Notes under the pieces: model-generated | What the model was told of the DNA's origin: nothing | Seen by the model: only the letters and a program-made list of their open reading frames with translations | Databases searched by the model: none | Position numbers and translations under genes: made by a program | Part shown: piece by piece, positions 9,101 to 63,634 of the stretch | Position numbering within the stretch: the stretch's first letter is position 1 | Layout: each line of letters opens with the position of its first letter | Assembly: GCA_963920765.1 (NCBI GenBank) | Contig: OY987242.1 | Location: 25,382,002-25,446,001 of the forward strand | Direction of reading: 5' to 3' | DNA from: Ulota crispa | Taxonomy: Eukaryota; Streptophyta; Bryopsida; Orthotrichales; Orthotrichaceae | DNA: 64,000 nt

Positions 9101-12100
9101 CCATGTACCCAATAGACGACTTCATAGAAATTACGTTAATCAATGTGGGATGGAAAGGCTACAACCAACATAACATTGAAAGCATGATTATATTGGTATG
9201 AGTGTCCCAATACTCATCACTTGTTATTGTAAATAAAATTAACTGAAAAGCAACCAAGTTTAACATTAAAATATTTAAAACAACATTTTAGTGTTTTAAT
9301 TTGGAATCTCGTGAATAACTCTATTATAATATAATTCTTTACTGTCACATACATTGAAACCAAACTCCCTTTTGCAGGCACGCACATTGAAAAGCGACCT
9401 TCTTATTGTAAGACAAAAATCCGTCACTTGGTGTGTCGAGTTGTTACGAGTTCCTGATAACCGTGCTCGTTGTATAGCAGCTGGTCTGAGTTGCTACACT
9501 GTATACCTCTTTAATATCACCCTTTCTAATATTGCATCCTCTTTTCTTTAACCCGTAAAGGACCATTGTCCCTTTGGGGACAAATGGGATTTTGGGTATA
9601 TACTTATGGTTATACTACTTTGTGAGATTTTCTGAAATTTTTATTGAAAGTGAGGAATTCAAAAATCATCTTGGGAATGTAATTTTTTCTTCATTCCAAC
9701 ATTTATTGAAGAAGTTATGCATGAAAATTTGGAAAATGCTGCTCCCCCGGTAGCCAAAAATTTCTTTTAAAAAATCATTTTTTTCAAATAAAAATTTAAA
9801 ATAGGTTCTTTAGACTTATATAGACATGGGGAGCTTTAAATCATTCAATTTTGATAGATGAGATGAAAGTTATGAGGAATTTTTGTTTGTGGGCAGTTCT
9901 AGATTCTCTACTCTAAAATAAACTTTGAAGTCCTTTATTTATTCAATTTTCAATATTTTGGAAAAAAAAACAAAATCAAAGGATATAGATTGTTTATCAC
10001 AACATCATAACCGTTGGGATTTGCATTTTTCATTTAATAATTAAATTCTTAACAATTTATTGTTTTTGACTCATTATCTACTTCTTTTTACTTACTATTT
10101 TTCCCCATGTGTTCTATAGTTCCAATTGATTTGAAAATTCTCTCACATATACCTACTTGGTCTTCTACATGGGAAGAAAAAAAACCACAACTTTGTGTAA
10201 AGCAATTTTTTTGATATAGGAGTGGTCAATGGCTTTTGAGATCTTTGGGCAGTACAAAAAAGAAACTTTTTTCTTCACTTCACATGTAAATATCTCACTC
10301 CTTTTCTTTTGAAATAAGCTCATTTTTTTTCCAAGTACCTCATACTGTCTAGAGCAAGATCTTACGGTTAGATTTCAAAAAAAAAAAAAAACTACCATTC
10401 CTTTCATCCTCCCAAAAGTGGCAATTTTTAGTGTTTTTCACAGAGAAAAGGGCTTGGTCCTTTAGGGGTTAACCAAAATCCTCTTTTAGATAGAGATACA
10501 TGAAGTGCAAAACTCATTACATTTTTTTATCATAACACTTTGCTGTGCCATGGTTGAGAAATTGCATACAAATCTGATAATAAGGATTGGATAGCTCGTT
10601 TGATAGGTGTAAAGATGATTCTACATTAGAAGGAGTATTTTTATTAGGTGAATTTATTTCAAAAGAGTAAGCTAGTATGCTTTAAAACCGTCACTTTAAG
10701 GGCTGGTTTACCTTTTCATCTGCTTTTTGAGATAAAAAAGATTTCTATCTAATTTTTAGACAAAGAGGAATGGATGTCAAGTATAATACCATTTTTTTCT
10801 CAATTTTGAAGTATTATTGAATTGTTGATGAATTTTCAAGGTTTTTTGTAGTAGACATCTATTTGTGACTCTAGGTCTTCCATAAACTGTCCCCTTGTAA
10901 CTTTGAAGACATGATGTGAAACCAAGGAGTATGATTGGCTCTTGTTATAAAATACACATTTTTTTCTATGACTTCAAGGGGTCCATTCAAGAACCACTCA
11001 TATCCATTCAAGGACCACTCATATCCATTCCTAAGCTACCTATGAGAAGCTTTATATGAAAAGGTTGCTTTTAGAGCACACTACCTTAGTCTCCAATTGC
11101 AATCTCAAGATCCAACCACTCTCAACACACCTTGCATACAAGGATCACAAATGATCCAACAAAATGGATTTTTAGTTCACAAAAAGATCACTAATGACAA
11201 ATCATAAGTTGAAAATTTTAATGCTGTCACAAGTAATGACAAGTTTTTTTTGGCCTTAATGAAGCTTAGACATACATGCCAACACATTCAACACCAAAGA
11301 TTGCAAACATTCTTTCCAAAACTTCAATGTTAATAGTGCGTATTTCAAGTGCCTAGGTGGCATTCTAGATGTATGTTTCAATTGCACAAGCTAGCAAATT
11401 GGCTAGATGTATCACATAGATATTGTAGTAATAGTATCTTATTTTATAGTACTCATAGGGTTATTTACCCTCTCATTCAACTTACTCTTATTCTTATTTA
11501 ATTGACAATTAATGTTCAAGTTGACAATTAGTGTTAATTTGTATACCATTATAATGCAAGCTAAACCATTATAGTATTGAATTAAATTTTGGTGAAATTT
11601 TAGTTGATAAATACTTATCATATTGACATTTAGTATTAATAACACTAATAGTGTTGTTGACATATAGTGTTACAATTTGCAATTAGTGTTGCCAATACTA
11701 AATATCATTATTAGTGTAATGAGTATTCCAGTGTTGCACATAGTGACAAATGTGCCCATGAACCTTTTTATGAAGAATTGTTTTAGGTTATTGCCAAGTT
11801 TATTTTAGGTTTATTTTTTGTTTATATTTTTTATACTTGATGGTATAGTAAGAGCTGATGGTGGCATAGGCTTGCAGGTCTTCTTCCTATTTTAGCCAAC
11901 ATGATTCCAGAAACAGACCTGTACATTCGTCAACAACTTGCCCTCTGTTTCAAGTATTTTTCAGGTAATTGCCACTTCTCTATGTGTCTCCTTTGTTAGC
12001 TAAGAGGTGTGAGCATACTTGGTTGTCCTCTTATTGTAATTTTTGTGGTATTGCAAGAAGGTTTGGGGTTGAAACACAAAAAGTTTGGATTGGTGGTCAA

Positions 12101-15100
12101 AAGTGGTAAAAGAATCTCAAAAGATATTGTATTTAGATACCACGCCTTTATGTGCTATCACAAAGAATCATGCTAAAACCAAAAAAAAATCAAATGAAGC
12201 AAATATGTGGGTTTTTTTTGGAGGGAACGTATTAGAGTGGAATTGCACAACTTCTCTTCCAAATGTGAAGATGGTCATTTTTGGAGCTCATTTGAATAGA
12301 ACACCAATTATTGATAGGACACCAACCATTGAGAATAGGGTCACCTCTAAAATTAAGCATAGCATGGAATGAAGCTAACTCAAAAAATGGTAGGTACAAA
12401 TTGAGACTTGTTCAATAGCTTCTTGCGTTATGGTGGTTATCAATCTTTCAAGCTAATACAATTATATTTTACTAATTCTGGACTATGAAGGCAAATAAAA
12501 TTGTATAAGACCATGGTGATTGAGAGATATTATGATATCATGCATATTTTTTGGAATTAAATTCTTCACGCATGGAGTAGTCCTCAATTGAGGGATCTCT
12601 TCGTGCAACTTGCCACGCACTAGAAGCAACTTAAAAGTGAGTCTTTTTAATGAACAATGGACTCACCTCCATTTTTCACCCTATCCCCTTTGTCCATTTA
12701 TGTGGAAAAGCTCCACTTGATATATTAACAATAAAAAGAGTAAAAAGCTGCCCTCATTGTGGAGTTGTTCATTTTTACCCAACTCAACCATGGTAAACTA
12801 ATTGAGGGTCTCTAAATCTAAATATGAACTCAAAATTTCCAAGTTTGACTTATTATGGCAAATTTTTCACTTGGGAAAATGCTTGAATTTAGAAATTTTC
12901 CATGAGAACTCAAATTTTGAATTCATGTTTGGAACTAGAGACTCTCAAGTAGTTTACCGTGGTTGAATTGCGTAAAAATGAACAACTCCACAATAGGGGC
13001 AGCTTTTTACTTTGTTTTTTTAATAAAACAAGTGGAGCTTTTCCACATTGGGGTCCACATAAAGGAAAAGAGGAGATCTAGGGAAAGATGCAAGGAGGCT
13101 ATGTGTTTACCAAGAAACCCAACTTTAAGGTAGAACCACCAATTCCCAATTATTTAAGCTCATGCAGGATAGCACATTAGAGCAACAATGCAGCACAAGT
13201 TTTTCTTTGGTTGGTTCATACAAAATATTGCGACATAATTTTTTTTTTTTTTAATTTTCAAGCAAAATTGAATTATATACAAATTTTGAAGTACACAAAG
13301 TGTTTGGAACCCATACCCAATCACTATACTCTCTTGATCCTGATCATAGCCAAAACACTTTTTGCTCACTACTTCCTACTTTCTTTTGGGACACATGTCA
13401 CAACCTCATTCATCTTAATCTTGAAAAAGGAAGAAATACACATTCCAAGGCTTGGAAATAGGCTTTAGAAATAGCACACCCTAGACTGGTTGGGTTTGGA
13501 TCCCTAGTTGGGGATGGGTGGTTCTACCTTAGATTGCTTCTAACTTAGTGTGCGCCATGCAATTCTTAGGAATCATAGATTGATCAAAACTTCAAATTTT
13601 ATCTTTTTTTTTTTGGACAAGGTCTTTATTATTGGAATTTGGAAAATTGCATCTCTGAAATGACTTGGCTCTTAGCAAGAGTAAAATTGTTGTGGTGCTT
13701 TCTGTTAACAGCTGCAATTCAAACATGGAATGACCTAGTTAAACTGGGTTGCATTAAAGGCCTTATTGAAATGGTAAGCATTTTGACCTTTGGTGCATTA
13801 ATTTGTCTTAGCTTTCACGTAGAAAGTCTAACATTTTTGTTTAGTTGTTTTTAGTACTTTGAAAAATTTAGTAAAATAAAAATCCCATGAAAGTGTCCCT
13901 TAGCATTACCAATACGCTAAACTCTCAAAGAAGACACTTAGTAATTGCACTTCTCTAAATATAGTAAAACATACAATATATGGCTATGGATACATCTAAT
14001 TAGAAAATTGTCACATGTCATGTTCTAAATACATGTGAAAGCCCATTAAATGATAGCACATTTAAAACCACTTATCTCTAGGACAATGTTGCTAGAGAGG
14101 TTTGAGTGCATAGACACTAAGCAAATGAGGTGATTTGAAGTTGGAATTTCCATAATAACATTGTGAAAATCCTTTAAAAGAATTGCAATGAGATCTTTGG
14201 AATAAGGTAAAAGCACCCATAATTATCTTTGTACCCAAATTGGAATCTACAAAGAGCATCTCACACTAATCCCTTACACATCCACTTGAAAATCATCTTT
14301 TAACACTATATCTTGTTCATGTATTGAATAATGTTGGATTTATTTAATTGCTTTGAAACAAGAATGGTTGTTGAGAGTATTTTATTAAAGAATAACAAGA
14401 ATCGTATAAAGCAATCCAATATTGTTTTTGTTTTTTACTTTTTTTTGAATCTCATTGATTTAAAATGTTAACATGGAGAAAATATTGGCACATGTCATTG
14501 AGAGTGGGAACAACATCAAATTCCTTAAATTGGATCTTGGTCTCTAAGTAGTTGGTACAAGAGTACAACTTTTGAAAGATGAATGAATTCAAACATATTC
14601 CATCTACGTGAAAACTACCCTTTGCATCCATGCAAATATCAAATGTGCTAGATCATTGTGTTAGTTTTTTGGGATGTGTGTTCATTATAGATTCCCAAAA
14701 TAACTATATTTAGATGTTTTCAACACTAACTATGTTTTACCTACATAATCCAAGTTTCCACACTCAAATAACAACCATAGTTAAAATTAACATGAGAATT
14801 TAAAATAGAATCAAACTACCCTAATTAGAAATTTAGAGTTCAAATTATTTTATAAGAAATTGATGTAAATGAATTTTTCTTTTTAAAATTACTCATGACT
14901 AATTTCTAATTCATTTTCAAAAGAACTTTGCATTACATGTCTCAAATATATTCAATCAACACTAATGAGTGCAACACCAAATCTAACCATATGAATATGA
15001 TCTATGATTTATTGTTAGCAAAGTTTGCTTGAAAATCAAAATGAAGGTATTCTAAAAGTTGCTTTCTCTCCCTTCTTGTGTGATTGATTTGTGAACACCA

Positions 15101-27251: not shown

Positions 27252-29268
27252 GAAAGTTCAATCCTGAACGTCGTTGGGAGTTAAGGTGAACGTCATAACC
27301 GTATGTCAGATCCATGAAGCCTTTCAGATTTACTTTCTTCTTCGCTGATATGCTCATTCTACTTATTTGGTCATGAATGTGCAAATGCATGGACAATATT
27401 GTTAGTGAGCATTGATTTTCTGTATAATAGAGTCCCAGGTGTGGAGGACCTTCTTAATAGGTTAAAATGGCAGAGCCTGAGGGCCCTTAAACCTAAAAAC
27501 GCCTAAACATGGCTAAGATTCTATTGCACAACGAACATGCAATCATATTTCTCCTGCCTAAAATTGCGACAGTACATTCCACTAGGTGAAATCTACTTAA
27601 ATTTGGAACATTGTATTTCACGGGCATGGAGTGTATTAGGGGACGTCAAGACTAAGTTGAATTAGAAGACGTAAAAGTTAGCTTTCCAAAAAGTGGCTTA
27701 GATTTATGGGTAACCAATCACATCATCTAAAGTTGCTGTCTTTTGGGTTTTCAAGGAATCTTGGGAGAGGGGCTCAATTTTAGGTATCTTCTGTAAGTTT
27801 GGAACTTATTTTTGCGCTTCTTGCTTTAAGAAGCAACTGCTGAAAGCCACAAACTCAAACAGGTGTTGAGCTTGAGGCAAGTGCACCACGTGTCCTATTC
27901 TCTAGCCTAAAGTTTTGCACAAAGTTTCAATCTTGATGCCCACTCTTTCAGTGGCATGGAGTGCACTATTGTTGCCACTATAGTGAGGTTCTGCCTGCAA
28001 GACAAGGAAGTGCTATTTGCAAGTAAAAAAATTTGCCATGCTATTTTTAATAAAGAGTGCTTTTTATGATGAAGTGGAACAACGCATAACTATTGTACAG
28101 TACAATCGAGCCTCTCTTTTGGTCTCGAAGGTTTCTTGCACTGCCTGTCGAGCTAATTTCAGCAGACTATTTGAGGACTTGTTGATGTTGAATCCCAACA
28201 TAACAAGGATTAGAGTAACTTTGTAGTCAAAGATTGGACATGGTGTTCCCTTTTTCTAACTTGTCTAGGAGGATGTGTGATTTTACAATGCCATTCCGAA
28301 CTAGTTCGTAAGTTCTTTGAAACTCAACTAGCCATTATTTCAACTTTGTTAAACAATAACAAGTCACGTAGTTTCACTCATATTTTTTCATTAATATGAT
28401 TTATAAGTATGTGACTTGAGATTGCTAGCATACAACCTCATGAGATTTTATTGATTTTGAAGTGTTCAATTTTCTTTATGTCTAGTTGAGTTTAACTCTT
28501 AAATGCTTGGTTGGTAACCATGTCTTGCCTTGCCTTGTAACAAGTTCCCACCCTATAGTATTGTTTTTAAAAGTTGCAAAAGTCAACAATGTATGTTGAT
28601 CTCATAAAAATTGCAAGAAAGACAATATGGGATCTAACATCATGTCTCTAAGTCTTCTCACAATTTGGGTTACCTAAAAATATGAGTGTATTTGGTGAGG
28701 TTGTTTTTTACCTTCCATAACAGATGATGGGTTAATGGTCATTTTCTGAATAAAAAATTAGATGAAAATAGCTTATTTTTGTCCTATAGAATGTTTTTCT
28801 ATAGCCAAAGGATGAAAAACGTATGCCTTCGCGTTTAGAGGTTAAAAGAACTCAAGCGCTTGTTTGGAGGGCACTGTACAATCAAAGTATTCAAGGGTGT
28901 TTTTACTTGACATAGCAAAAGCACTCACAATCTGCAAAAGGTTTTGGGATCTGCCATGGTAAGGTAGCAGCATCCATAACCATCAAATTAAGGGTTTTGA
29001 ACATGATGATTATTGATAAACATCTAACAAATTATAGGATCCTATAAGCAAGAGAAAAATGATGAGCTTGCACTTTCAAATGTATTATTTGGATATTATG
29101 AGAATAAGTTGTGAATATTTAAAGAGCCAATTGCAATTACACCTAATATCAACACTAAGGTTTCATATTCACTTGCTATACATCCTTATAATTATATCTA
29201 TTCACTTTTATAGATTTTTCAAGATTTTAGAGGTGATGGTTATGGGTATAGTGATGGTTGTGAGTGTT

Positions 29269-29428
29269 CACTACAAGGGAGCACTATCAATTTGAACATT
29301 TTTTGTCAATTAGGTCATGTTGATTTGGACACTTTTTTGTCAATTTAGAAATGTTTTTATCAAAATTTTGTCAATTTGGACATTTTAGTCAATTTGGACA
29401 TGTCATTGTGAATAATTTTTCTTGTAGC
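29269..29428. mobile_element. CACTA-like mini-element
   Basis: Starts CACTACAAGGG and ends TTCTTGTAG. Inside it repeats the motif TCAATTTGGACA (also CAATTAGGTCAT, GATTTGGACACT) several times, as in the elements at 25672 and 51650. The ends match the CACTA terminal motif CACTACAAGAAA. Confidence 0.65.
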
Positions 29429-38070: not shown

Positions 38071-38468
38071 AAGTGGAAATCTATTAATAGATTCCACTTA
38101 AGACTAATCAATTCTCACTTTTAAGGGCCCTTGGGAGGCATCAATGGAAGGGAAGTCACTGAAGTTAGGGAAGGATATGATTGATATGTCATTTGTGACT
38201 TGTGGTTGAGGTTCTTTGCTGCATTACATACCATTCTCCATTCTACTATTGTCCAGTTTTTTGAAGATCATTTTCACAAACCATTCTCTAATTTATCATT
38301 CTCCAGTTTTTTGTAAATTGTTTTCAGTCGAAGATGACATTTGCCAAATGATCTTGGCTAGATTTTTGCCTAGCCATGCTCTCCATGTTGGTTAGCAATA
38401 AAAATTGCTGCGTGATTGGACAGGAGGTATTGCCACATTGTTTCCAAATATTGCATCTATGGAGACGA

Positions 38469-38953: not shown

Positions 38954-39066
38954 GGCATCACTCTCTACACAAGGTGGTCAATTTAGAACTTAAATCTAGG
39001 TACACCATAGATAGCTTATTGATGTTGACCAAAATGCTAAGGTATCTATGATGTATCTAGATTTAA

Positions 39067-41003: not shown

Positions 41004-42536
41004 GCATTTTAAGAAAGTCGTGCCAAGAATTGGACTATTCACCCAAAATGTAGTTTTTTTTCCTTCCATAATTGTATTAAACCATAATAATAACCTTTTG
41101 TGCATTACAGTTTAGCACCTTCTATAAGAGTTAAGGTAGACATACCCATACCTAACCGTTTAAGGGTTTGGGATATCTCAAGGTCTAGGAAAATTTAGGA
41201 AAAATCCATGCTATTAGACTTTCAACAAGCTATTATGGAACGTAGTTTTTGGGGAAAAAAATATTGTAGATTATTTTATATTAAAGGGAAAAGTTGCAAC
41301 TCATATGGTCCATATTAGCAACTCTAAACTAACCTTGAAACTGCTTGGATGTATAATGGCACTTAACAATCCTAATCTCAACCCTCCCAAACTAGCTTAG
41401 CAATTGACTTGTGACAAGATTTGCTTGCGCAAATAGAGTTCATTACTCCACTATGGGTTCAACAATGAGTGGTGAAACCCTCAAAAGTAGGGTGCAAAAT
41501 TGGGGACCAATGGGGAATTGGTGTGTCTACCTTACTCACAGGAGTAGCATTTTTCATAACACTTTGAAGAAATATAAAGTATTGGAGTTAGAAAAACAAA
41601 ATTAACATTTATGAATTTGACATCTATAAAATATATCATAAAGAAGAATAATTACAACAAGTTATTTCCACTTCTTCTATTTGAAAAGAATATTTTATAC
41701 CATGAAATAAATTGACATTGTATTGTTGAAAGTGATGATTGCATTATCTTTTTACAATAGATAGAAAAAACTAAGCAATAAAGTTGTGCCAAAAATCCAT
41801 TGAATGCCAAGGTCTCAATTCCCTATCTAGTTCTTGAAGGTTTTAATGAAATGCATGATGTTTCTAAACTTTTGTTTAAAGAATCTGGTTCAAAGTACTG
41901 ATTGCAAAAAAAGTTTTAGCGAATTCTACCATTGCAACTACCAGTTCAACCAAGTCCACCTTACCTTCTGTTTCAAGAGTGTTACTTTCTTCAAGACTAA
42001 ACATTTCCAGTAACTAAGCACTTGTTCATTAATAGGAATAATTGAAACCAGATTCAAATGCATAATTGACCAATTCATGAGCATTCATGGTAGGCAATGT
42101 GTATAAATTCTCACATGATAGAGTCTTTTAAGCGTTTCTAGCACAAATGTAATATCTCCAATTTCTTCTTGATGCCTAGTGCTCTGCTTGAATTAGCTCG
42201 TACAAAATGCACACATGTTTCCAATGATATGCAATTGTTGAAGGTTTAACTCCTACTCTCCAAGTCACTTCAACAATTGTCACTAATTCAAAGAAAAATG
42301 CTTCATACAAATTATGCGCTTTGTTTAGAAGAATGATTCACAACAATGATGTGGTTGAGAATAGAAGAATCTTTTATTTTTGTTTACCAATTTTCAATCA
42401 ATGAAAAATTTATCATTATTTGGATGACTTAACATCTACCTGAACAAAATTTATGAAAAATGAAGTATTGATAATGATTATACTAAATGCTTAAGTCTTT
42501 TTTTGTTGCAAAAGTAGGAAGCACTGATTTATATAG

Positions 42537-42952
42537 GGAATTGATATATGCACACCGGAGGTTGATATTTGTACACCCCTCTACAGTAAATTATAGATTT
42601 CTACCATCATAAAGCTAAATTTGAGAATTTTGAATTTAGATCTGGACTTAGAGACCATGATTTAGTCTAGAACTATAAAAATAAAAATAAAAAGTTGCAA
42701 TTCAACAACACCCAATGAAAAAAGTTATCTTTTTTTATAAACAAAAGTAAAAGTAACACTTTTTTCCCTAGCTAAACTTTTTCATTGGGTCTTGTTGAAT
42801 TACAACTTATTTTCATGGTTCTAGACAAAATCATGGTCTCTGAGTCCATATCTGAATTAAAAATTCTCAAATTCAACTTTTGATGATAGAAATCTAAAAC
42901 TTACCCTGGGGTGTGTGCAAATATCAACCCCTGCCTGCATATACCAATTCTC
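42537..42952. mobile_element. inverted-repeat MITE family G, copy 2
   Basis: Left end GGGAATTGATATATGCACAC, right end GCATATACCAATTCTC. TTTATATA lies on both sides, an 8-base target duplication. The arms pair over nearly the whole element (GACCATGATTTAGTCTAGAA / TTCTAGACAAAATCATGGTC). Confidence 0.75.
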
Positions 42953-43768
42953 TTTATATAGCACCCATAAAGTTTTTACACATAGAGGCAACTCTTATAA
43001 AAAGTCAATTGTTGTATCACATGTCAATCTTAGGTGCCACTGCCACCATGTGTATGACACGACTTTCATAAAGATGGTCTTCTTGTTTGAATCTTTGTAT
43101 ATAAATGCTTATTTAGATAAATCTAATAATAGTAGAAGATAAGTGAATGATTGGAGTGACAATACTTGGCTATTGTTTTTCATAATATATATTGGAAGAT
43201 CTTTTATTTAATAACATCTGCTTACAAATAGTATGTTTGTAACTACATGGATTAGCTTATAAATTGAAGGATATTTTTGTTACAACACATGCAAAAATGC
43301 ATTAGAAGGGATGTAATTACACTTTTTGTACATTACTAAATATCAACTTTTCTCAATCGAAATACTTTTGAAACACATATGACATCAATATTGCTATTTT
43401 TTGTTGTTTGTATTACTCATGTTGTTTTAGGTTTTGAATTAACAAAAACTTGTCATATTATCATAATTTGAAGTTTGTAACCTACTATCTATACAAAAAA
43501 AAAAAAAGAAAAAAAGAAAGAAAAAAGAAGCAGCAACGTAACAAATACTAAAGGAGATTCTCCCATCATATGTGAAATTTGTTTTGAATTCAAAATTTGT
43601 AACAATGGTACAAAAATTTGTGATCAATCATATTTTCTATGTCATATAACCTTCACTAAAATGTAAAGTAAGTAGAGATAATCTCATGATTTATTTCTAT
43701 GAAAGCTTTATTAATTTAATCCTTCATGCTGTTAATTGTTATGAACAAATGCTAGATCTTGCCTTTAA

Positions 43769-44477
43769 TTCCTAAAGGACTGTTCTCCCTTCTATAGACA
43801 AATGGGATTTTGGGTACGTACCTATGGCTAAACTATTTTGTGTAATATTTTTGAAATTTTTATAGAAGATGGAGAATTCAAAGATCTACGTCAGCATTTA
43901 AATTTTTCTTCATTCCAACATTTATTGAAGAAGTTTAAAATGAAAAACGGGGTGGGCAGGTAGTCCAAAAGTTTTTTTGAAAATTGTATTTTTTTCAAAT
44001 AAAATTATGAAATAGGTTCTTTAGACTTATATATACATGGGGAACTTTTAATCATTTAATTTTGATTGATGAGATGAGTTATTAGAAATTTAGTTTGCTG
44101 GTAGGTATGAAGTCTCTCAAAACCATACATACATGCAAACTAAAACTCCTCATAACTTCCATTTCATCAATTAAAATTGAATGCTTAAAAGCTCCCCATG
44201 TATATATTAGTCTAAAGAACCTATTTCATAATTTTATTTGAAAAAAATGCAATTTCTAAAGAAGTTTTTGGGCTGCCTGCCCACCTTTGTTTTCCAAATT
44301 TTCATTTTTAACTTCTTCAATAAATGTCACAATGAAGGAAAAAAATAGATGCGCACATAGGTCTTGGAATTCCCCATCTTCCATAAAAATTTCAAAACAT
44401 CACACAAAGTAGTTTAGCCATAGGTACATGCTTGAAATCCCATTTATCCCCCAAAAGGGCCAACAATCCTTTAGGGG
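43769..44477. mobile_element. TTAA-flanked long foldback E4 (709 bases)
   Basis: TTAA (43765-43768) TTCCTAAAGGACTG at the left, CAATCCTTTAGGGG TTAA (44478-44481) at the right. Both arms are about 340 bases and pair closely. For example GGTTCTTTAGACTTATATAT / ATATATTAGTCTAAAGAACC and GTACCTATGGCTAAACTA / TAGTTTAGCCATAGGTAC. The loop is near 44115. Confidence 0.85.
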
Positions 44478-44481
44478 TTAA

Positions 44482-45289
44482 CTCCTAAATGCCCTAGGCC
44501 TATCTGAGCTTCTTGGAATTTCCATGAAACAAAAAAATCAACTACCCTTTTCAAAAATTTCATCAAGTTTTTTTCTATTGTAACCGTACAAATTTAAACT
44601 AAACATGTTAGAGATTACATAGAAAAAGAAAACATAGTAATATCACTTTTTGAAATATTATAATGTTTGAACATGAGGGTGTCAAAATTGCAAAAGTGAC
44701 TTGAACTCTTCCAATCCTCATTTTACATGTCAAATCTAAAAATTTGGTCACCAAAAAAATATGAGGTTTAAGGTCACTACATGTTTAACTTCAATCAATT
44801 TACAGCTTTCAAAATCTACTCCTGTATTTTTCTTAAATGAGTTTCTAATGTGGATTTGCCTCTAAGCTCTAGTGTATTTGAGGCTCATTTTCAAGATCTT
44901 CCAACACTAGAAAACTCAAGATTGCAGTGGACACTCTTGTACAAAATTTTGAGTAGAAAAATCATGAACATTCATTTTCAAAAGCAGATTTATGGTGTTG
45001 AAAATAGATTTCAAAACAAACTTGTATTNNNNNNNNNNNNNNNNNNNNNNNNNNNNNNNNNNNNNNNNNNNNNNNNNNNNNNNNNNNNNNNNNNNNNNNN
45101 NNNNNNNNNNNNNNNNNNNNNNNNNNNNNNNNNNNNNNNNNNNNNNNNNNNNNNNNNNNNNNNNNNNNNNNNNNNNNNNNNNNNNNNNNNNNNNNNNNNN
45201 NNNNNNNNNNNNNNNNNNNNNNNNNNNNGGTTTTATTAATCTTCAAAGTTTTGTAAAGACCCAAATCTGGTCGCTTTGGCATTTAGGGG
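44482..45289. mobile_element. TTAA-type element E5, interrupted by assembly gap
   Basis: It starts right after the TTAA that ends E4 (CTCCTAAATGCC). It ends GGCATTTAGGGG then CTAA at 45290. Its sequence matches the element at 61979-62600 in places (AATTTAAACTAAACATGTTA and the complement of TCTAACATATCTAGTTTGAA). The gap makes its true length unknown. Confidence 0.6.
45029..45228. other. assembly gap (200 N)
   Basis: Exactly 200 unknown bases, probably a placeholder length. It lies in a repeat, where assembly is expected to break. Reading frames that run through it are meaningless. Confidence 0.99.
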
Positions 45290-45410
45290 CTAACCTATAA
45301 ACCTTGAAAGTTTTTGTTTAGCAAAAGAGCTAAATGTAAAATATTCATAGTCTACAGTCCAATGGTTACATCAAAAGGAACAAAAGGTAAGCGGCAAAAC
45401 CACGTATTAA

Positions 45411-45636
45411 CCCTTAAACAATCGAAAGGCCCTTTGCGACCAGTATAATACAGGGTGCTTTTCTTGTATTTGGAATGGATCCACACCTTTACTACATTTG
45501 AGGCCAACAAAGAAGTTGAAGAATAGATCAATGCGGTTCTAGTGAGCTACTTGAGATCCCAAATTAAAATTTCGTATTGGTAGCAAATGACAATTATACG
45601 TCAGCGTACATATCATGTCCTATGGTTGTTTAAGGG
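45411..45636. mobile_element. TTAA-flanked short element E6 (226 bases)
   Basis: TTAA (45407-45410) CCCTTAAACAATC at the left, GTTGTTTAAGGG TTAA (45637-45640) at the right. It is the uninterrupted, inverted relative of the element at 7693-8286 (TTGTATTTGGAATGGATCCA, CCAAATTAAAATTTCGTATT). Confidence 0.75.
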
Positions 45637-46399
45637 TTAATAAGCATGTTATGGGACACCATTGTTTGCGTCCAGCCTAAGGTAGATTTTCATGTTTGGA
45701 AAGACAAATAGAGGAATGGTATTGCCGCATTGAAGTGTGACCTTATTGGAAAAAAACAAATTGACAAACTTAGTTGGCATGATTAAAGCATAAACTAGGG
45801 GTTAACCTTTAAAGGACCATACACCGTTTTATTTTGTCAACATAGAAATTTTGGGCATCTTAATTTGAACAAATATTGGCATAAATTCTTTGAATTACTA
45901 ATAGAACTTGTGTAAAAAGTACCTTTTTGGCATTCTAATTTTCAAAAGCACTAAACTTATGGTAATAAGCTAAAATAGAATATGTATTTACTTTTCCATA
46001 TGAGGCAATTTGGACAATCATAAAAAAGATTCAATTAGTTTAAAAATTTGCATACACACTCTCAATGCCAGGGTTTTTTTTATGTATTTGTCAAGGTAGA
46101 GCAACCTGCACCGTGGACCTCTCGCAAGTAAGGAAAAATAGCCTATAGTTGGAAAGAATGAACAAGGTGTGCTTGTTCATCCAATATATCTAATATATAT
46201 AAAAGAATCATGTGGGATGTTTTGGATGAAAAGTAAAATAAAGTAAAGTAACACTAAAGTATGACAAATCATTGGAAGTTACACCACTCACTACAAGTTA
46301 TACCACAACACTCTATTTTATCCACATACAACACTATCTATTATTTGCTTCTCCAAAAGTTAACAACAGGTCACCAGCAATTGCACAACAACTTTCTCT

Positions 46400-46855
46400 C
46401 GGCCAAAAGGAGGCATAAGGATAGGGGGATGGGGATAAGAGGCACAAAGATAGGAGGCATAAGAATAGAGGGCACGGGGATAGGAGGGCACATGGATAGG
46501 GGGCACATGCAGAGATAGGAGGACACATGCAGGGATATGGGGACACGAAGATATGGGGACATGGGGATATAAAGCACGGGAATACGTAATTATGGAGATA
46601 GGGGGGCATGGAGATAGGGGGTATGGAGATAAGGGCACAGGGATAGAGTGCATGGGGCATAGGGGGCACAAGGCATATGGGGCACGGGGCATATGGGGCA
46701 CATGGATAGGGGGTATAGGGATATGGGACATAGGGATAGGGGGCATGGGGATAGGAGGCATGGGGATAGGGGGCATGGGGATAGGGAGGTACAAGAATAG
46801 GGGGCACCGTAAGGATATGAGGCATGAGGATAGGAGGGCACGGGGATAAGATTGC
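46400..46855. repeat. G-rich minisatellite on + strand
   Basis: About 450 bases of degenerate units close to GGCATGGGGATAGGG and GGCACATGGATAGGGG. The plus strand has many runs of three to six G, and the strand asymmetry is strong. Proline/cysteine-rich frames seen on the minus strand are a by-product of the repeat. Confidence 0.9.
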
Positions 46856-47170
46856 TATTGCACAATTTTTTTATCACAAGGATGTTTTTGTTGCCTCCGT
46901 TGGTACAATAGGTACGTAAACTAGTTTGCTAATATAATCTACTTTCATCCAAAAACTAGAGAATCTGGTGTTTGAGGAATGAGGGACTTGGCAAATTCAT
47001 CCCCTTTTTTCTGAAAATTCTTAGTGTATTGGGAGCCAGTGACTATTTCAGGTAAGATTTTGGCAAAAATTTGCCCAGAAAAAGAACCGTGCTCAAAGCA
47101 CCCATGTAACATATTTCAAAGAGTTACAATGTCAACAAAGACATGAAACACAATTATGAGCTTTTTTTAA

Positions 47171-48141
47171 CCCCTAAAGGACCAAGCTCTTTTTTTCTAT
47201 GAAAATCACTAATAACTGCCACTTTTGAAGGAATGAGTAGAAATGTAGGATAAAAAGCTTTTATTCAAAATCCAATTGTAAGATCTTGCCCTAGACTATG
47301 GGAGGCACTTGTGGGAAATTTGTTTTTAGCTCATTCTAGATGTAGATGAGTCAGATATTTACATCTAAAGTGAAAAAAAAAAAAAAAAAAAAATCCGTAC
47401 TACCCAAAATTTACAAAAGCCTTTGACCTCTCCTATATCAAAAAAATTGCTCTACGCAAAGTTGAGGTCTATTTTTTTCCATGTAGAAGACCAAATTAGG
47501 TAAGTGTCTGAGAATTTTCAAATGAGTTGGAGGTGTGAATCATACTTTGTAAAATCCTCCAATGTTGTAAGGTCATGAAATTTGCATGTATTGTACACTA
47601 GGAAAAATTGAAGATTTATGTAAAATTCAGATATCTGAATTACTTGAATCCAAATGGTAAAAATCAAGGAATCTTAGTCTACTACAACTTGGGAGAAAAA
47701 GAGTCAAGAAACAAATACACAAAGAGCTCAAGAATGTAAAGCACCAGAGTTAACAAGGCGCAAAAGGAATGGAGGTTTGGGAGTCCCATACCTACTCGCA
47801 AACTAAAACTTCTTATAACTTTCTTCTCATCAATAAAAAATGAATGATTGAAAGCTTCCCACATATATATAAATCTAAAGAACTAATTTTGGATTTTTTT
47901 TATTATTTTTAAATGAATTTTTTTTTAAAGTTTTTGGGCTCCCTGCCCTCCTTTGTTTTTCAGAAATTCATACATTACTTCTTCAATAAATGTATGAATG
48001 AAGAAAAATTTAAGTGCCCACACATATCTTTGAATTGCCCACCTTTAATAAAAGTTTCAAAAAATCACACAAAGTAGTTTAGCCATAGGTACATGCCCAA
48101 AATCCCATTTATCCCCTGAGGGGACAATAGTTCTTTAGGGG
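47171..48141. mobile_element. TTAA-flanked element E9 (971 bases)
   Basis: TTAA (47167-47170) CCCCTAAAGGACCAAGC at the left. GACAATAGTTCTTTAGGGG TTAA (48142-48145) at the right. The left part matches the complement of E1's right half (AAAATCACTAATAACTGCCA). The right part matches E4's right arm (GTAGTTTAGCCATAGGTACA). Confidence 0.75.
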
Positions 48142-48145
48142 TTAA

Positions 48146-48414
48146 TTGGTGCAAAAGCCACCCCAAATTAGAGTTGCCCAGAATTTGAATGCTTTCACAT
48201 AAACAAAACAAAAAAGAATCACTTTAGACCCTAAAATTTCACAATTTGAGCGGTAAATATCTTTCATCTTTTTACTATATCATAATGCAGAAGTCTACTA
48301 CTAAATCCTAAAAGAAATTGTACCAAGATATCATTTTCAATTTTTTTTGTCTTTCTATCAAAACAACCCATTCTAAGTGATTTTTGGTGAAACGTAGTCA
48401 AAGAACTTTAGGGG
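48146..48414. mobile_element. possible TTAA-type fragment E10
   Basis: It lies between the TTAA closing E9 and AACTTTAGGGG TTAA (48415-48418). The right end fits the family, but no matching left end was found, so it is probably a fragment. Confidence 0.4.
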
Positions 48415-50467
48415 TTAATTGAATAAAATTGCAGTACTCCAATGAATTGATTGACTCCAATCTAGAGCTCGGTTGTATAAGCTTTATAATCAAGAATAAG
48501 TGTTTCATTGTTCCATACTTTTGTATTTGTAAACAAGATTTTTTTTTTTTTTCATTGGGAGAACACCTCAAAATGCATACAAAAGTAAAGAAAAAATAAA
48601 CAATAGCACCCTGTTTCCAAATTCATCCATAAATCGACCGAGTTTTACTGACTTTTATCCCAGGATTTGGCAAATTTATCCTCTTTTTTTTTTTTACTTT
48701 TTTGTTGTTGTTGTTAAGGTAGCAAGTTTCAGATCAAGTAAGATTTTGGACAGAAAATGCTCAAAAAAACCCCTACTTGTACACACAAAAATACAATGCT
48801 AAATAGGTGCTTGAAATAATACTTGGCAATGAAATCACAAAAGTAGATCTTCTGATTGTGAGATTTGTTCAACCATTTGGCAACTAGTAATTTTTAGTGC
48901 ATTTTGCCTATTGTGCTTTAATGCAGTATCTAACAAGAAGCAAGTTTTTTTGGGTTTCCTCAAAACTAGTGGCCTAAGTTATGATTATTTATAGTGCATT
49001 TTTTTGTCTTGACAATATCCATGCAACCAAGTTGCTTTTTATTTTAGATTGTCTAGGTTTTTTTGCCAAGGAGATTACTAAAGAACACAAATTGAATGGT
49101 AACAAAATTATCAAATTTTGACTTGTTTTGAGCTAGAGGATGTCGTTTAGACACAAAGGAGCATGAAACCAAAAAATTAAATCTCCACTTCTCAACAAGT
49201 CAGATTCTAGCTTTTAAGGAACAAAACTGATTTGTACTTTGTAATCTTTTTGGCCATATTTGTTATTCATCTTGTAAGAAATTCTCAACATCATAATTTT
49301 TTTGGATGAAAAAGTGCTCATTTTATGTTTGAATACCATATTAAACTCCTTTTGAATTATCCAAATTCCACAAGAAGCAATCTAAAAACTGCTTTGGTTT
49401 GCAAGAAAATAGAAGATATTTGCAAGACATTGAAAGGTACGTGCAAATATTGGAGAAATCTCCAAAATTTCAAGGGCATGAAACTAATCAAATTAATAGT
49501 TCGTAGGTAGTTGAAGAAGTCATTTGTTATGAAATTTAGGAATTTTGCACTTGGGCTTACAATCATACACTTGGGCTAAGAATCATGCATTTGAGCCCTT
49601 GAATGTTTGAAATGATCAAAAATGACAGTTCCAAAGTTTCAAAACTACAAATCTCAAAACAACATTTCTACAACGTGAAGGAACAACAAAATTGCCACTT
49701 TTTTCAAATATAAAGGATGGCAACCTTCAAAATCATTGTGTGAAATAAGCAAATCTAACACCCTTAGAAGTGCAATTTTACCAACTTTTCAATGAAATAT
49801 TTATAAAAGCATTTGGTGAGGAAAGAACAAAAACATAAATAAAAAAACAGAGGTTAAGAGGTGGTCTAAGGTTCAAGAGGTGTAAGTAGGTAGAAGGTTA
49901 GGGTTTGCGTTTAGAGTTTAATTATCACACCTTTGCTTGTCTTTAATACATGCACACATTTCTGATTCATTCAAAAAAATCAAATGTAAAACATTTTGAA
50001 AAGAATACAAGACTTTGTGTGGCCAATCAAGTAGAGAAGAGTCTTTGATGATGGTTGTAATTAACCTTGTACATTTTGAGATAAAAACATTCAAAATTTT
50101 GAAATTCATCAATATAAAGGTGAGTGTTCTACCATCTTTAAAAAATTGCACTTATAACTTTGAGTTTTTATTAATGAGGTGTATGATCTAATTAGAAGAA
50201 TTAAAACAAATATGTTCTATCCCCACCCAATTCCATGGATTCAAAGGTGTGAATGATAAATACAAAAAGAAAGGGGATGAGGCATATGCCGAACGCTCTT
50301 TACATTAATTTTATGCAAATCAAATTAAAGATTTGAGGCAAAATGGCTAGGGGAAATGAGGGATCTGAGAGATATTTTCACACTAACTTTTGATGAAATT
50401 GAAACTAAATGCCAAAGGGAGGAAGTTGAGACATTCCACATGTATCCTTGTGGAAGTTAAATTACAG

Positions 50468-51939: not shown

Positions 51940-52305
51940 CCAATTTAACGCCTCTTTGAAACCATGAATTTACTCATGTAGGGCAAACTTCCATGCTAAT
52001 CTCATGGGGGCAAATTATGCAATATGAGAACATTCCTCTCCTAGCAAGCTTGGCCTTGTCCATATGAGGTACCATTGTTGCTACTAATCCTTAAATTATC
52101 AATAACGAGGAGCCAGCAACATGCACAAATATGATATTTTTTGCATAGAACTTGGGTGCCCATATGACAACATCAAAGTTTGAGATTTTGCATACATTTG
52201 GTAGATGGTATATTGATTCTAGAATGCATATATCACAAAGACCAAAAACACAATTAATCCTTTGCAAGGAAAGTTTTTGGATTTTTTAGAGATACAAAGA
52301 GAATA
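51940..52305. mobile_element. Stowaway-like relative K2 (diverged)
   Basis: Matches K1 over blocks such as TTCCTCTCCTAGCAAGCTTG, AACTTGGGTGCCCATATGAC and AATCCTTTGCAAGGAAAG, ending TTTTTAGAGATACAAAGAGA. The terminal repeats are degraded, so K2 is older than K1 or less constrained. Confidence 0.5.
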
Positions 52306-53044
52306 TTTGCTACCAATAAGAAGTCTTAATTTGGGAATTCAAATTGCTCACTTGCACCGCAACGATCTATATTCCAACTTCATTATTAATATCAAATGTA
52401 ATAAAAGAGATAGATTGTTTCCGATACAAGAAAGACACCTTCCAATATACAAGAAAGATACCTTCCAATATACTTGCCACGAAGAATTTTTCAAACTTTG
52501 AAAGGTTGAATCAAAGTCAACCCTCTGGAACAATACAATTCGAATTTTGCACAGATATATACTCACAATTATTTGTGTTGTATGATTGAACAACATGCAT
52601 ATACCAAGTGGTGGAACAAAAGTATGAGCATTTACAAGTGCACCCATCCCTCACCACTGCCAAGTGCCAATTGGCCATATTGCCGTCTGTGCAATTAATG
52701 CTCTGAGAAAAGGATTTCTGATAAAAAGCTGCAAGTCACCAGTCACCACCGGTAAGGTTTACAAACGTGCAGTACTAGGGTGCAATACTAGGGTCATCAC
52801 AGTCTACAAAATGAAGACAGACTGTACACCCACCTTAGCCTCTTTCCAATACAAGTAGACTGCATTAAATGCTGGAGTATTTTGCATTTATAGAATGTGC
52901 TGGCACTTTTACTCTTGGAACCTGGTCATAAATCAGATTTAATGGAAAAGAAGTGTAACCTAAAACTGCGATTCTATCCAGCATGAGTAAATTTCAAACC
53001 ATGCTATTATACTGTACTCACATTAGGGTTTCGAAGAACTCTTC

Positions 53045-57579: not shown

Positions 57580-58270
57580 ACATTGGTACGCAAGAGGGTA
57601 ATATTGGAACTCAGAAATGGTAAGAATGGAACACAGAATGGTAATATTGAATTTGCAAACTGGTAATATTGGTAATACTGAAACAGGAAATAGTAAAATT
57701 GAAAGTGAAATATTAATATTGAAATGCAAAATGGTGATATCATACTACTAAAATCACAATGACCTGTGTAATATCACATATTGACCTTTATAATATCATA
57801 TCTCCAGTCTCATAGGTACAATCACATTGGCCTTTTGTAATATCACATCTTGATTTTTGTAATATCACATCTTGATCTTTGTAATATCACATCTTGATCT
57901 TTGCAATGCCACATCTTGATCTTTGTAATGCCACATTTCTAATCTCTATGATATTATTACATAAATATAATTTTAAGACTTGTTGAAATTTTTACTTTGC
58001 ATTCTACCTAACACATCAAAATCCTAATAAATTTTTGGTAGTGAATGCTTAGCATAGCAAGAGTCAACACCTAGTTAAAGTATGAAATAGTGATATTGTA
58101 AGTGTGATATGGTAATATTGTAAGTGTGATATGGTAATATTGTAAGTGTGATATGGTAATATTGTAAGTATGATATGGTAAGATTGTAAGTGTGAAATGG
58201 TATAGTTGAACTGCAAAATGGTTGTATTGAAGTGTGAAATGGTTGTATTGAAATGTGAAATGGTAGTGTT
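57580..58270. repeat. opposed minisatellites of an ATATCAC/GTGATAT motif
   Basis: From 57590 to 57740: units like AATGGTAATATTGAA. From 57750 to 57955: about six units of 23-24 bases, AATATCACATCTTGATCTTT. From 58085 to 58200: four or five units of 22 bases, GTGTGATATGGTAATATTGT, then AAATGGTTGTATTGAAGTGT variants. The middle block is in the opposite orientation to its neighbours, so the region can fold on itself. Confidence 0.8.
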
Positions 58271-60325
58271 GGAATTAAATTGAGAAAATCAAAAAGTTTT
58301 GCTCAATTAATGAGGTGTTGAGAAGCGCAAGCATGGGCCCTCTTAGGTGAGAAAACAAGGAAAAATATTAAAAATTATTGGCCTTGAACCACCATCAAAA
58401 AACCAAAATTGTTGTTCTCATACATACAAAGGAGCACATGGAGAAAAGAGATTTAGGAACTAAATACACCTGGCTTTGAAACTTCATGTTGAAACAATAA
58501 CAATGTTGTCCTTCTATACTAGTCTTGTATTTCATTTCAAACACGAGGTATTGTATTCATTATTGTTACTTTTTTCTACTATGGGTTAATGTACTACAAA
58601 TAATTGAAAACTTCATGTTGAACCAAGCTATTTTAGTATTAACCTTAAGTTATATTTAATGTTTAGCAACCTATTATAATGTTTTAAGTATTATGTAGAG
58701 TATTTAAGGTCAAGTTGCACTAATTAATGACATTATAATAAATTATCAAAAAAATTGTATATGATGTAGTTGAGATATTGCTACTTGTTGCTACAAAATG
58801 AAATTCTTGTTTTGTAACCCCTTTTCAATTTTAGAGAGATTCACAAAATCTTACACAAGGTCAAAATCCATGTTAAAGTACAAGATGAAACGTAGTTCAA
58901 TTTTTTCATTCCACAATTTTGACTATTATTTGTAATTAATTTTTAACTCATAGGCAATAATCAAGTATAATGAAGTACTTTGGCTCATAGACTTTAAAAG
59001 AGAACTCCTTTATTTATCAAATGCTTCATATTCTTAACATTTGGCAATGGTACATAGAGTGTTTACAAATTTCCTTATGAATGAATAGTTTAGGTCCAAG
59101 GAAGTGCAAAATTTGAATAATGTATCCAAATGCTAAATTTTCAAAAAAATGAAATACCAAGAGAGTGTAGTTATTGCATTGAAGTATGTAGTATAGTATT
59201 GGAAATAACTTTGTAATAAACAATAACCTATGTTAAAATCTAAGAATGGTACAATTGAAAATGTTTAATATCTAACAACATGGTGGGTTTAGATTTGAAT
59301 AGGTATTGTTGAGATTGTTTTAAACCTACAAATAAAACATGTCACAATTAACATCACTATATTTCATAACAATTTTCAACAAATATTTAAGAGTATGTTG
59401 TAAATAAAGTTTATAGTTTAACCATAAAATACAACAAATTTGACATCAAGTTCTTTAATAGAATGATCCATTGAGATTAAAAGAGTCTTTTTGGAAATCG
59501 TTTCACCTTATAGAGTAGATCAAATCTCATGTTGAATCACAGGACAATAGAACACATTCAGATTTGGAATAGAGATTATGAAAATTGTGATAATAGAGTA
59601 CTCTAGGCTTAGTTGACAATTCTTGAATAAAATCTATTGAAATGCATTATGTTTTGGAAAGATAAATACTAAAAAATCACTTCTACAAATGGAATAATCC
59701 ACTAATTTGGTATAAGTTTTTGCAATTGTAAAATGCTTCAAAGCTTGGTAATATTTTGTGAAAACTAATGTATTATGGTAATATAATTATATCTCATTGT
59801 ATGACAATTAATTGCATTAAGATTTGAAAAATCCATTACAAAATTGTTTACACTTGACACCAAGATGTATGTCAAATTTAGTTTCAAACTATTTGATATT
59901 ATGATACATTAAAATATGAAGATTAATATCACTTAAATAATTTATAACAAATGAAGGAATTGATAGTGGCCTTCTATTTTTTGACAATAAAGTATATCCA
60001 ACTGAAACCTTATTTGATAACATGATGTGCAAGTATCTTCTTTGTGTGTTGTTTGTTATTTTATGATTAACAACCATATGCTCAAAGTGTGATTGCACAT
60101 TATTTAACAATAGGATATCCAAAGATTTGCAAATTCTTTTTTGTTTGAAGTATAAGAAAAAAAATGGCTACTAATAGCAGAAACATATTATACATGTTTT
60201 AGGCATTTGTGTATTCAAACCCAATCAAGATTTAATCTACAATACCATTTTTGTTATCATTTTTCCAAACAACTTAATGTGGAGATCTACTTACAACAAT
60301 GAGTATTGATAACATAAAAAGTAAA
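58271..60325. other. AT-rich intergenic stretch, nothing recognised
   Basis: No convincing exon, RNA gene or terminal repeat was seen. The few short frames have no recognisable motifs. If the exon at 63000 is real, this may be intron of that gene. Confidence 0.4.
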
Positions 60326-60731
60326 GGAATTGATATATGCACACTAGGGGTTGATATTTGCACAACCCCTAGGGTAGATTTTAGATTTTTACCATCATAA
60401 AGCTAAATTTGAGGAATTTGAATTCAAATTTGGACTCAAAGACCATGATTTGGTCTAGAACCACAAAAAAATTGCAATTCAACAATATATAATGAAAAAG
60501 CTTATCTTTTTTTACAAACAAAAGTAAAAGTAACACTTTTCTTGATAGATAAACTATTTCATTGAGTTTTGTTGAATTGCAACTTTTTTTTATGGTTCTA
60601 GACCAAATCATGGTCTATAAGTCCAAATCTGAATTCAAATTTCTCAAATTCAGCTTTATGATGGTAGAAATCTAAAATTTACCCGAGAGGGTGTGCAAAT
60701 ATTAACCTCCAATTTGCACATATCAATTCTC
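60326..60731. mobile_element. inverted-repeat MITE family G, copy 3
   Basis: Left GGAATTGATATATGCACACT, right GCACATATCAATTCTC. The arms pair over nearly all of the 406 bases (AAAGACCATGATTTGGTCTA / TAGACCAAATCATGGTCTAT). AAAAGTAA and AAAATTAA on the two sides are a possible target duplication. Confidence 0.75.
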
Positions 60732-61079
60732 AAAATTAAATTCTAATTTCCTTTCCATAACATTATTTCCTTGTAGAATTAGCAAAGTACATTTCAATGA
60801 AAGGCAATACACCATATAAATTTACTTTGATGTTATGGCAAGTCATTTCAAGTGCTTGACATGTAAGGCAATGCAAGTAAGCGTAAGGGCGTCTCCACTA
60901 CATCCTTATAAAATGCTATGAAACACGCCCTATTGGATGAAAACAACCTCTTTGCAAAAGTTGCTCAAGTGGAGACATCACATTTTGTAAATGTACCTAG
61001 CTCTTTCAAACTACCGTTTAAAATCAAGTTTACATGAATTTATGTACTTGTTTACAAATCTTGATGGAATTTCCTCTGA

Positions 61080-61943: not shown

Positions 61944-61978
61944 GCTCCAAGACTCAACACACCTACCAAAACTCTTAA

Positions 61979-62600
61979 CCCCTAAATGCATGCGGCACCA
62001 AATTTTGGTGTATACAATACTCTAAAGTTCAATAAACCTAACTAAGTTACTATTTTTAGTATTTTACATTTTGGATTTATTCTTTGTGAAGTCTAATTTT
62101 AGGACCAACAATCTGATTTTGAAAATGATCAATTATGATTTTTTTATTCAAGCTTTTGTGCAAGGGTCTTGACTTTCTCTAGTACTGAGAGCTCTTGGAA
62201 ATGAGCCTCAAATACACTAGATCTTGGAGAAAAATTTACTTGCATAATTCGTTTGAAAAATTTGTAGAAGAGATTCTAAAAAGCTATAAAGTGATTGGGG
62301 TTATATATGCTATTTCCTTTAACCTTATATTTTTTTAATGGTCATTTTTTTACATCCAACATGTGAAAAGAGGATTCAAAGGCTTCAAGTCAATTTTGTA
62401 GTTTTAACACCCTCATGATCAAACATTATAATCTTTCAATCCATAAGTGATATTGTTGTGTTTTTTTTCCAATGTGACCTCTAACATATCTAGTTTGAAT
62501 TTGTATGATTACAATTCAAAAGAACTTGATACAGCTTGTCTTCTTGTTCAATTTGTAGCAAATTCTTAAAAGCCCAAAAAAGCCCTCAGGCATTTAGGGG
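61979..62600. mobile_element. TTAA-flanked element E11 (622 bases)
   Basis: TTAA (61975-61978) CCCCTAAATGCATGC at the left. CTCAGGCATTTAGGGG TTAA (62601-62604) at the right. It belongs to the ATGCC-ended sub-family with E5. No coding capacity. Confidence 0.75.
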
Positions 62601-62999
62601 TTAATATGGGTGGTTAGTATGCCTACTACTAAAGTAGTTCATATGGCATGCATTCCTTTTATATGTATTATTGCATTCATGCCCTTTACAACCCTCTACA
62701 CGTCAAGTAATTTAGGCAATTCACGAAGTCAAGTTTTAAGTTTGACCACTCCCTTTCAAAATAATAGAGCAGGAGCCCTTGTGGAAAGAGCTCAACCCCT
62801 AATGAAAGAAGAAATCTCCTTTTACTTTGGGTCCCATGGACCAGTGCTTGATTAATCTCAAAAGAAGAATTCAACAAAAGAAAAGGAAAATGCAACAACG
62901 AAAAGAAAAGAAATCAAGCCATTGGTCGATCCGCCCCCAAACAAAAAGAATTTAAAACGAGAAGAAATGACCCAGCAGTCGAAGCCGGCATCAACTTAC

Positions 63000-63094
63000 C
63001 TACCGACCCTCCATAACCTCTCATCAGATCTCGACCATTCATTTAGATCGATATCCTCCGGCTCGAACTCAGCCAAGTAGTCGAGGTCCAGCAT
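63000..63094 (-). CDS. possible first coding exon of an unidentified gene
   Basis: ATG at 63094 opens MLDLDYLAEFEPEDIDLNEW, then SRSDERLWRVG, and ends at a strong donor (GGTAG/GTAAGTTG) at 63000. The stretch is acidic and less AT-rich than its surroundings, like exons elsewhere in the window. The remaining exons would lie at lower coordinates, but I could not find a continuation, and the protein is not recognised. It might instead be a chance frame with a good donor. Confidence 0.35.
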
Positions 63095-63634
63095 GGAATT
63101 TCAGACGTGTCCAAGTTACAGCCATTGATTGGTCAAGAAATTCACGAAAGTTCTGGAAGGCCTTCAGCAGGGAACACGTGGGAGGAAACCAAGCATGCGA
63201 ACCCATGGCCCTCGTGTGAATGCAAACTGCGCTTCGAGTGTTATTATCATTTACCAGTCCCTTCTTTATTGAGTCTCCCCGTGTCAAATTCTCGTGTATC
63301 CTTCGAATATTTTTAGTGTTTTTGTGTTAGTCTTAAATTATTATTTGCCACTGGAATTTGATTCCATTTTATGGCTCCCATTACCGTTTGGTTCCTTTAT
63401 GGTGTGCTGGTGCGCTGCAATATATGGTTGCTATTGGAATTTTCTGTTTTGAGTAAATTTGAATTGGGTGGTAACCATATTTAGTTGGGGTTGGTGGAGG
63501 ATAGTGACCTATTTAGGTTTCTTGTATGGATTTTTTCTAAATTTTGTTTTACTGTAGCACACCTGTTTTTAACATTTAGGGCTTGGTGGTGTAGGATCGA
63601 ATTATTTCTGTTTTTCTTTATTTTGTTGTATTAA

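Follow-up and report, generated by a model that had tools for sequence, protein, structure and literature searches.

A window of 64,000 nucleotides from the moss Ulota crispa (contig OY987242.1, positions 25,382,002 to 25,446,001), which is the whole stretch analysed here, carries a family of short, TTAA-flanked, CCC-ended miniature inverted-repeat transposable elements (MITEs). We consider these copies to be, almost certainly, non-autonomous MITEs of the piggyBac superfamily, with transposase-bearing relatives in the same moss genome. The first-pass annotation had recognized the family and had raised the idea of piggyBac-like elements in a plant, an idea which is now supported by empty sites, by transposases matching the PF13843 model and by TTAA-CCY ends on six transposase-bearing copies. 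In the following, C1-C11 denote contigs of the assembly and L numbers denote loci taken elsewhere in the same genome.

Elements in the window

The family was found to be real. The terminal pattern TTAACCCYTAAA has 48 matches in the window at up to two mismatches, against a mean of 23 and a largest value of 38 in dinucleotide shuffles (none of 100 shuffles reached 48), and CCCYTAAA occurs exactly 21 times against a mean of 6.1. Inverted ends with TTAA on both sides are present in six copies, a seventh is flanked by TTAA and TTAG, and further ends are degenerate, lone or truncated. By matching with 18 sequences from elsewhere in the genome, 5,735 bp (9.0% of the window) could be covered. The copies, with their terminal inverted repeats (TIRs), and the host gene are as follows.

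7694-8290, plus strand: degenerate copy of the CCCTTAAAC type, aligning at 7716-7829 and 8201-8290; left flank TGTA, right flank TTAA
9548-10472, plus strand: MITE of the family of about 930 bp; TTAA on both sides; TIRs CCCGTAAAGGACC and CCCCTAAAGGACC
28960-29274, strand not assigned: weak fragment related to the MITE L022:8673-9638
33489-34411, plus strand: degenerate member of the 930-bp family, in which the left end TTAACCCCTAAAGGACC is clear and carries the subterminal palindrome while the right end has decayed
34575-35303, minus strand: host gene for a Dof zinc-finger transcription factor (PF02701, E 1.5e-33)
39063-39811, plus strand: MITE with long internal inverted arms (39164-39426 and 39443-39705); TTAA on both sides
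43765-44481, plus strand: MITE with diverged left end TTAATTCCTAAAGGACT and right end TTAACCCCTAAAGGATT; TTAA on both sides
44478-45293, plus strand: MITE of the CCYCTAAATGCCC type; left TTAA (44478-44481) common with the preceding copy, right flank TTAG
45407-45640, plus strand: 234-bp MITE of the CCCTTAAACAAYC type; TTAA on both sides
45802-45820, plus strand: lone left end TTAACCTTTAAAGGACC; TTAA common with a diverged opposite-strand end at 45794-45805
47167-48145, minus strand: MITE of the 930-bp family; TTAA on both sides
48407-48418, minus strand: lone end TTAACCCCTAAA, single end only
52305-52433, strand not assigned: weak fragment of the CCCTTAAAC type
61975-62604, plus strand: MITE of the CCCCTAAATGC type; TTAA on both sides
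63631-64000, plus strand: left part of a member of the 930-bp family, which the window edge truncates

The uniformity which the first-pass annotation had ascribed to the ends holds in part. Many of them do read CCC(C/T)TAAA, but the sequence is TTCCTAAA at 43769, CTCCTAAA at 44482, CCCGTAAA at 9552 and CCCTAAAG at 63635; similarly, the statement that nearly every end is flanked by TTAA is true of the six copies mentioned, but not of the left side of the copy placed at 7693 (TGTA) or the right side of 44478-45293 (TTAG). The copy placed at 33493 has its left end but not a preserved right one, the copy at 63635 is present only as far as the window reaches, and the possible left end at 45806 proved to be a lone left end. 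The lone end at 48407-48418 and the two weak fragments had not been listed before. Only 33489-33599 and 34287-34410 of the copy at 33489-34411 align to the 930-bp family; its right end was first guessed at 34653, and this position was dropped after the family alignment. Fold-back structure is seen in some copies, e.g. 39063-39811.

The presence of the Dof gene identifies the host as a plant. Downstream of it lies an open reading frame (ORF), 31826-32785 on the minus strand, for which no Pfam family was found and which appears to resemble the C-terminal portion of cycling Dof factors; the copy at 33489-34411 lies between the Dof exon and this ORF, in a presumed intron.

Other repeats were also encountered. 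A high-copy repeat is located at 33289-33488 and at L034-L039 on C3, C9, C8, C7 and C10; of its 3,662 first-look candidates 40 were scored, and there were partial matches besides. Copies of this type end at TACC-TTA and then diverge, and it is precisely on this TTA that the TTAA-MITEs at window position 33489 and in L038 are placed. A fold-back repeat of about 410 bp occurs at 42527-42957 and 60314-60737, at several other loci and in a transposase-bearing element on C5 (its bp 4319-4744) described below. Minisatellite-like tandem arrays are found at 37895-38086 (unit 27), 46424-46807 (about 15) and 57765-58271 (about 22 bases).

Target site

The flanks of 48 candidate insertions were joined and compared with sampled genome DNA, and eight of them had uninterrupted paralogues, giving 44 alignments; the empty sites are therefore paralogous, not orthologous. 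In 34 of the 44 alignments the junction is crossed without a gap, the two flanks being separated by a single tetramer. This tetramer is TTAA in 15 of the 44, namely in the better-preserved cases, and an ungapped TTAA was found in at least one paralogue at five of the eight insertions. Neighbouring copies can share one TTAA (window 44478-44481; L011:1415-1418), and both outer bases of the TTAA are conserved at both element ends. A single TTAA at empty sites, which had been proposed as the test of piggyBac-type insertion, was accordingly observed, and neither an outer duplication nor a duplication of another length, which had been named as the contrary sign, was present at the eight insertions with paralogues. 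The elements thus duplicate a TTAA target site, as piggyBac elements do.

These comparisons bear directly on the suggestion that the TTAA is simply part of the TIR of another superfamily, such as PIF/Harbinger with TTA or Tc1/mariner with TA, the real duplication lying outside or inside it. Some local confusion is possible, since the second repeat at 33289-33488 ends at a TTA on which a TTAA-element sits. However, the empty sites contain one tetramer without outer duplication, on which ground a duplication of TTA or TA was rejected, both outer bases of the TTAA are kept at both ends, and the transposase-bearing copies belong to the piggyBac class, so that we regard this explanation as hardly credible.

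Abundance and types of ends in the genome

In the 274.8 Mb genome TTAACCCYTAAA occurs exactly 39,919 times (19,961 and 19,958 on the two strands), against 792 (397 and 395) for the reversed pattern, and for the 13-bp terminal repeat CCCCTAAAGGACC the count is 9,597, against 3 for its reversed control. Compared by eye, an exact TTAA precedes 28 of 34 plus-strand copies of CCCCTAAAGGACC on C1 up to 1.233 Mb. One moss genome therefore contains tens of thousands of short piggyBac-type ends (about 40,000 exact ones). Sampling of 160 kb at round coordinates over C1-C8 yielded 21 exact ends. A library of 41 candidate elements taken from other loci matched 18,923 bp (11.8%) of this DNA, as against 0 bp for the reversed library; the 11.8% is a rough figure because library elements can contain other repeats.

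TTAA-CCCYTAAA is common to all 83 exact ends collected, whose 13-bp TIRs are mainly CCCCTAAAGGACC, CCCCTAAATGCCC or CCCTTAAACAAYC, while the ends of different families share only about 8 bp. A short TIR starting with 5'-CCY, as is typical of piggyBac, was found both in the MITEs and in the transposase-bearing copies. The best-sampled MITE family, of about 930 bp, is non-coding (no open stretch of its 940-bp consensus exceeds 70 residues), and its pairwise identity is 77-88% in one sub-branch, 80-83% in another and 67-72% between them. Such divergence, together with the several end types, fits the earlier description of the lineage as long-lived.

Transposase genes

Transposase ORFs were not evident by eye in the first 264 kb sampled, and the transposases surfaced only in a profile search with PF13843, the piggyBac transposase model. 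Here 528 first-look candidates, of which 116 were scored, gave 120 scored matches (best E 1.3e-73); 14 control genomes gave no match. An in-frame stop is lacking in ten of the 120 rows. The lineage had also been called active, and this is not supported, because the MITE copies are diverged (77-88% identity within sub-branches) and most transposase rows carry in-frame stops.

The best solved relative of one transposase ORF is piggyBac of Trichoplusia ni (6x67, E 4.1e-20), and that of another is piggyBat (9c0f, E 1.7e-16). The active site of T. ni piggyBac is described as D268, D346 and D447 in PMC7351741; in the C5 copy D is aligned at all three positions (counted by hand), and in the L040 transposase the third is N. 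Downstream of the transposase domain an ad hoc cysteine pattern was recognized in 9 of 13 3' flanks, and moss transposase aligned weakly to the cysteine-rich domain (CRD) region of piggyBat with a score that is not significant. The pattern is what would be expected of the C-terminal cysteine-rich zinc-binding domain of piggyBac transposases.

A separate case is L042 (C1:1179000-1183200), where PF13843 pieces at C1:1180709-1181995 form exon-like separate blocks and the scored pieces contain no in-frame stops. No TTAACC ends were found around this transposase-like gene in 4.2 kb, and it is a possible candidate for a domesticated piggyBac gene.

Transposase-bearing elements and their relation to the MITEs

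The 1.7-kb 3' flanks of 13 of the 120 scored transposase rows were taken as a set; correctly oriented TTAACCC was present in six and TTAACCC in the opposite orientation in one. Both TTAA-CCY ends could be located in six transposase-bearing copies of 5.0-5.7 kb.

C3:13130262-13135288: family A transposase element
C10:11524996-11530021: family A transposase element, left flank TTCA
C8:14764131-14769128: family A transposase element
C2:15046195-15051296: family B transposase element
C9, about 16419462-16424749: transposase-bearing element
C5:10867266-10873011: transposase-bearing element of 5,746 bp, TIR CCCCTAAATGCCTAA

The TIRs of transposase-bearing copies include CCCCTCATCGCC, CCCTTGACCGCC, CCTTGTATTGCC and CCCCTAAATGCC. 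The three family A copies are 88-96% identical, their matching stops at TTAA (TTCA in one), and their flanks are unrelated. A diverged relative of family A is seen at C11:4438368-4448830, where a left-end match (71%) and a right-end match (72%), equally oriented, are separated by about 10.5 kb in which no transposase match was scored.

The other well-known superfamily that duplicates TTAA is Kolobok, which is recorded from some algae; according to PMC9587614, it occurs in chlorophytes and rhodophytes and has termini of the form 5'-RR...YY-3'. The target duplication would suit such elements, but the moss ends start with 5'-CC, for which reason a Kolobok identity was rejected, and the transposases beside such ends score to PF13843 and to piggyBac structures. 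We give this identity next to no weight.

One of the six copies ties the MITEs to a transposase by sequence. In the C5 element bp 5193-5746 (554 bp) match the MITE L014:2642-3546 (905 bp) at 83%, and bp 1-135 match the opposite end of this MITE at 72%; the two-end pattern recurs in L010:5486-6393 (75% and 73%). The shared ends of L014:2642-3546 are as an internal-deletion derivative of the C5 element would show. The terminal 394 bp of the C5 element gave 1,773 first-look candidates, and each of the 40 scored candidates matches at 87-100% identity over almost the whole length. In the window, the left 37 bp (84%) and the right 29 bp (90%) of the copy at 61975-62604 match the ends of the same element. 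The first-pass annotation had also asked for a DDD transposase whose ends are like those of the MITEs; six transposase-bearing copies with ends of this kind were found, one of them sharing its termini with MITEs; derivation of MITE termini from a transposase-bearing element is seen for the TGCCC type only.

The commonest MITE families, of the GGACC type, might be moved by a different, unsampled enzyme sharing only the target rule, the piggyBac transposases and the MITEs both being real. In its favour, no transposase-bearing element with CCCCTAAAGGACC ends is among the copies with located ends, and the short identity of about 8 bp between the ends of different families would be consistent with it. 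On the other hand TTAA and CCCYTAAA are common to all families, the TGCCC type is bound to a transposase-bearing element, and the flanks taken as a set represent just 13 of the 120 transposase rows. We consider a second enzyme improbable.

Subterminal palindrome

According to PMC7351741, the left end of T. ni piggyBac contains a palindrome, at bp 17-33, to which a CRD dimer binds. Among the 83 pooled moss ends, palindromes with at least seven of nine pairs peak at centres 24-25 (0.096 and 0.084 of ends; at most 0.048 in 200 shuffles). A palindrome centred at bp 25 is present in three of four transposase-bearing left ends (family A 5/7 pairs, C9 6/7, C5 5/7, against 2/7 in family B) and in none of the five right ends of transposase elements examined. 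These data suggest a subterminal palindrome at bp 24-25, and we grade it as no more than suggestive, the pooled signal being due mostly to ends that are related to one another. As a general feature of all end families it fails at the level of 32 clusters.

Discussion

The TTAA duplication, the TIRs, the transposase genes, the TTAA-CCY ends on six copies and one element matching MITEs are the observed parts of a scheme whose remaining steps are modelled on known piggyBac elements. Transposase from the larger relatives would bind the 13-bp CCCYTAAA terminal repeats and act in trans, the element would be cut out together with its TTAA by hairpin cut-and-paste chemistry, and it would reinsert into another TTAA, which would become duplicated; binding of the CRD to the subterminal palindrome may take part in this.

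Several results weigh against assigning the MITEs to piggyBac. At the empty sites the tetramer differs from TTAA in 29 of the 44 alignments (mostly by one base), and two of the eight insertions have no TTAA paralogue at all (mostly TCAA, or GCAA/CCAA); we read these tetramers as divergence, the paralogous copies being 68-87% identical. In-frame stops are found in 110 of the 120 transposase rows. A TTAACCC end was not found within 1.7 kb 3' in 7 of the 13 transposase copies, no end was seen around L040 or L042 in about 4.2 kb each, and the copy at C4:4129821 has a right end and no left end in 4 kb. Family A lacks a crowd of MITEs (five and four matches to its two ends), the GGACC subfamily, which is the window's commonest, is without a transposase-bearing relative among the copies with located ends, and the palindrome excess is gone when the 83 ends are clustered into 32 groups.

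The moss elements share with piggyBac of T. ni (6x67, 6x68) the TTAA target, CCC ends, a PF13843-type DDD transposase and a cysteine-rich C-terminal motif, and the bp-25 palindrome of three left ends may correspond to the one bound by the CRD dimer. They differ in host, in termini (CCCYTAAA or CCYTYNNYYGCC), in their very large MITE load and in length, 5.0-5.7 kb against the 2,472 bp given for the T. ni element. PiggyBat of Myotis lucifugus and its MITEs belong to the same superfamily, with a related transposase and third catalytic region, but have an animal host and probably other ends. Non-autonomous TTAA elements of corals are likewise attributed to piggyBac (PMC2872659), again in an animal host. 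Kolobok shares the TTAA duplication alone, its 5'-RR termini and transposase family being different (PMC9587614).

PiggyBac is a transposon class best known from animals, and to our knowledge plants are regarded as lacking it or as having it very rarely. A passage of PMC4093653 excludes piggyBac from plants, a statement in PMC10813416 has it isolated from plants, and a listing in PMC10794571, citing Wicker et al., places it among the plant superfamilies; other papers on plant transposable elements mention piggyBac without elements. The repeat table of the C-fern paper (PMC6890710) provides a land plant with annotated PiggyBac pieces, but these are 1,230 pieces of 122,417 bp (0.00% of the assembly), and beside the table no elements, ends or transposases are described. 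In the main text of the U. crispa genome report (PMC11803377; 11 chromosomes, 275.00 Mb) words beginning with 'repeat' or 'transpos' are absent. No land-plant piggyBac element described with ends and transposase was found in the open-access literature searched (subscription papers and repeat databases were outside this scope), and complete novelty is not claimed because the C-fern table, PMC10813416 and PMC10794571 mention plant piggyBac. The moss elements are a new and abundant addition to a known superfamily; from their host group piggyBac has hardly been reported, and it is the host and the scale which are surprising.

A wider picture, which we put forward tentatively and hold to be rather doubtful, is a long diversified radiation of piggyBac in mosses, whose several transposase lineages have their own ends and palindromes that differ but stay at bp 25, with deletion derivatives amounting to about a tenth of the genome and the intact-looking gene at C1:1180709-1181995 maybe domesticated. 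The occurrence of these elements in a moss would raise the alternatives of old inheritance and horizontal transfer, and would supply plant-native piggyBac sequences. Given a moss that has piggyBac transposase genes beside about 40,000 exact MITE ends, unclassified plant repeats would be annotated differently, and the moss genome is a natural test of the way in which a piggyBac transposase chooses between numerous MITE families.

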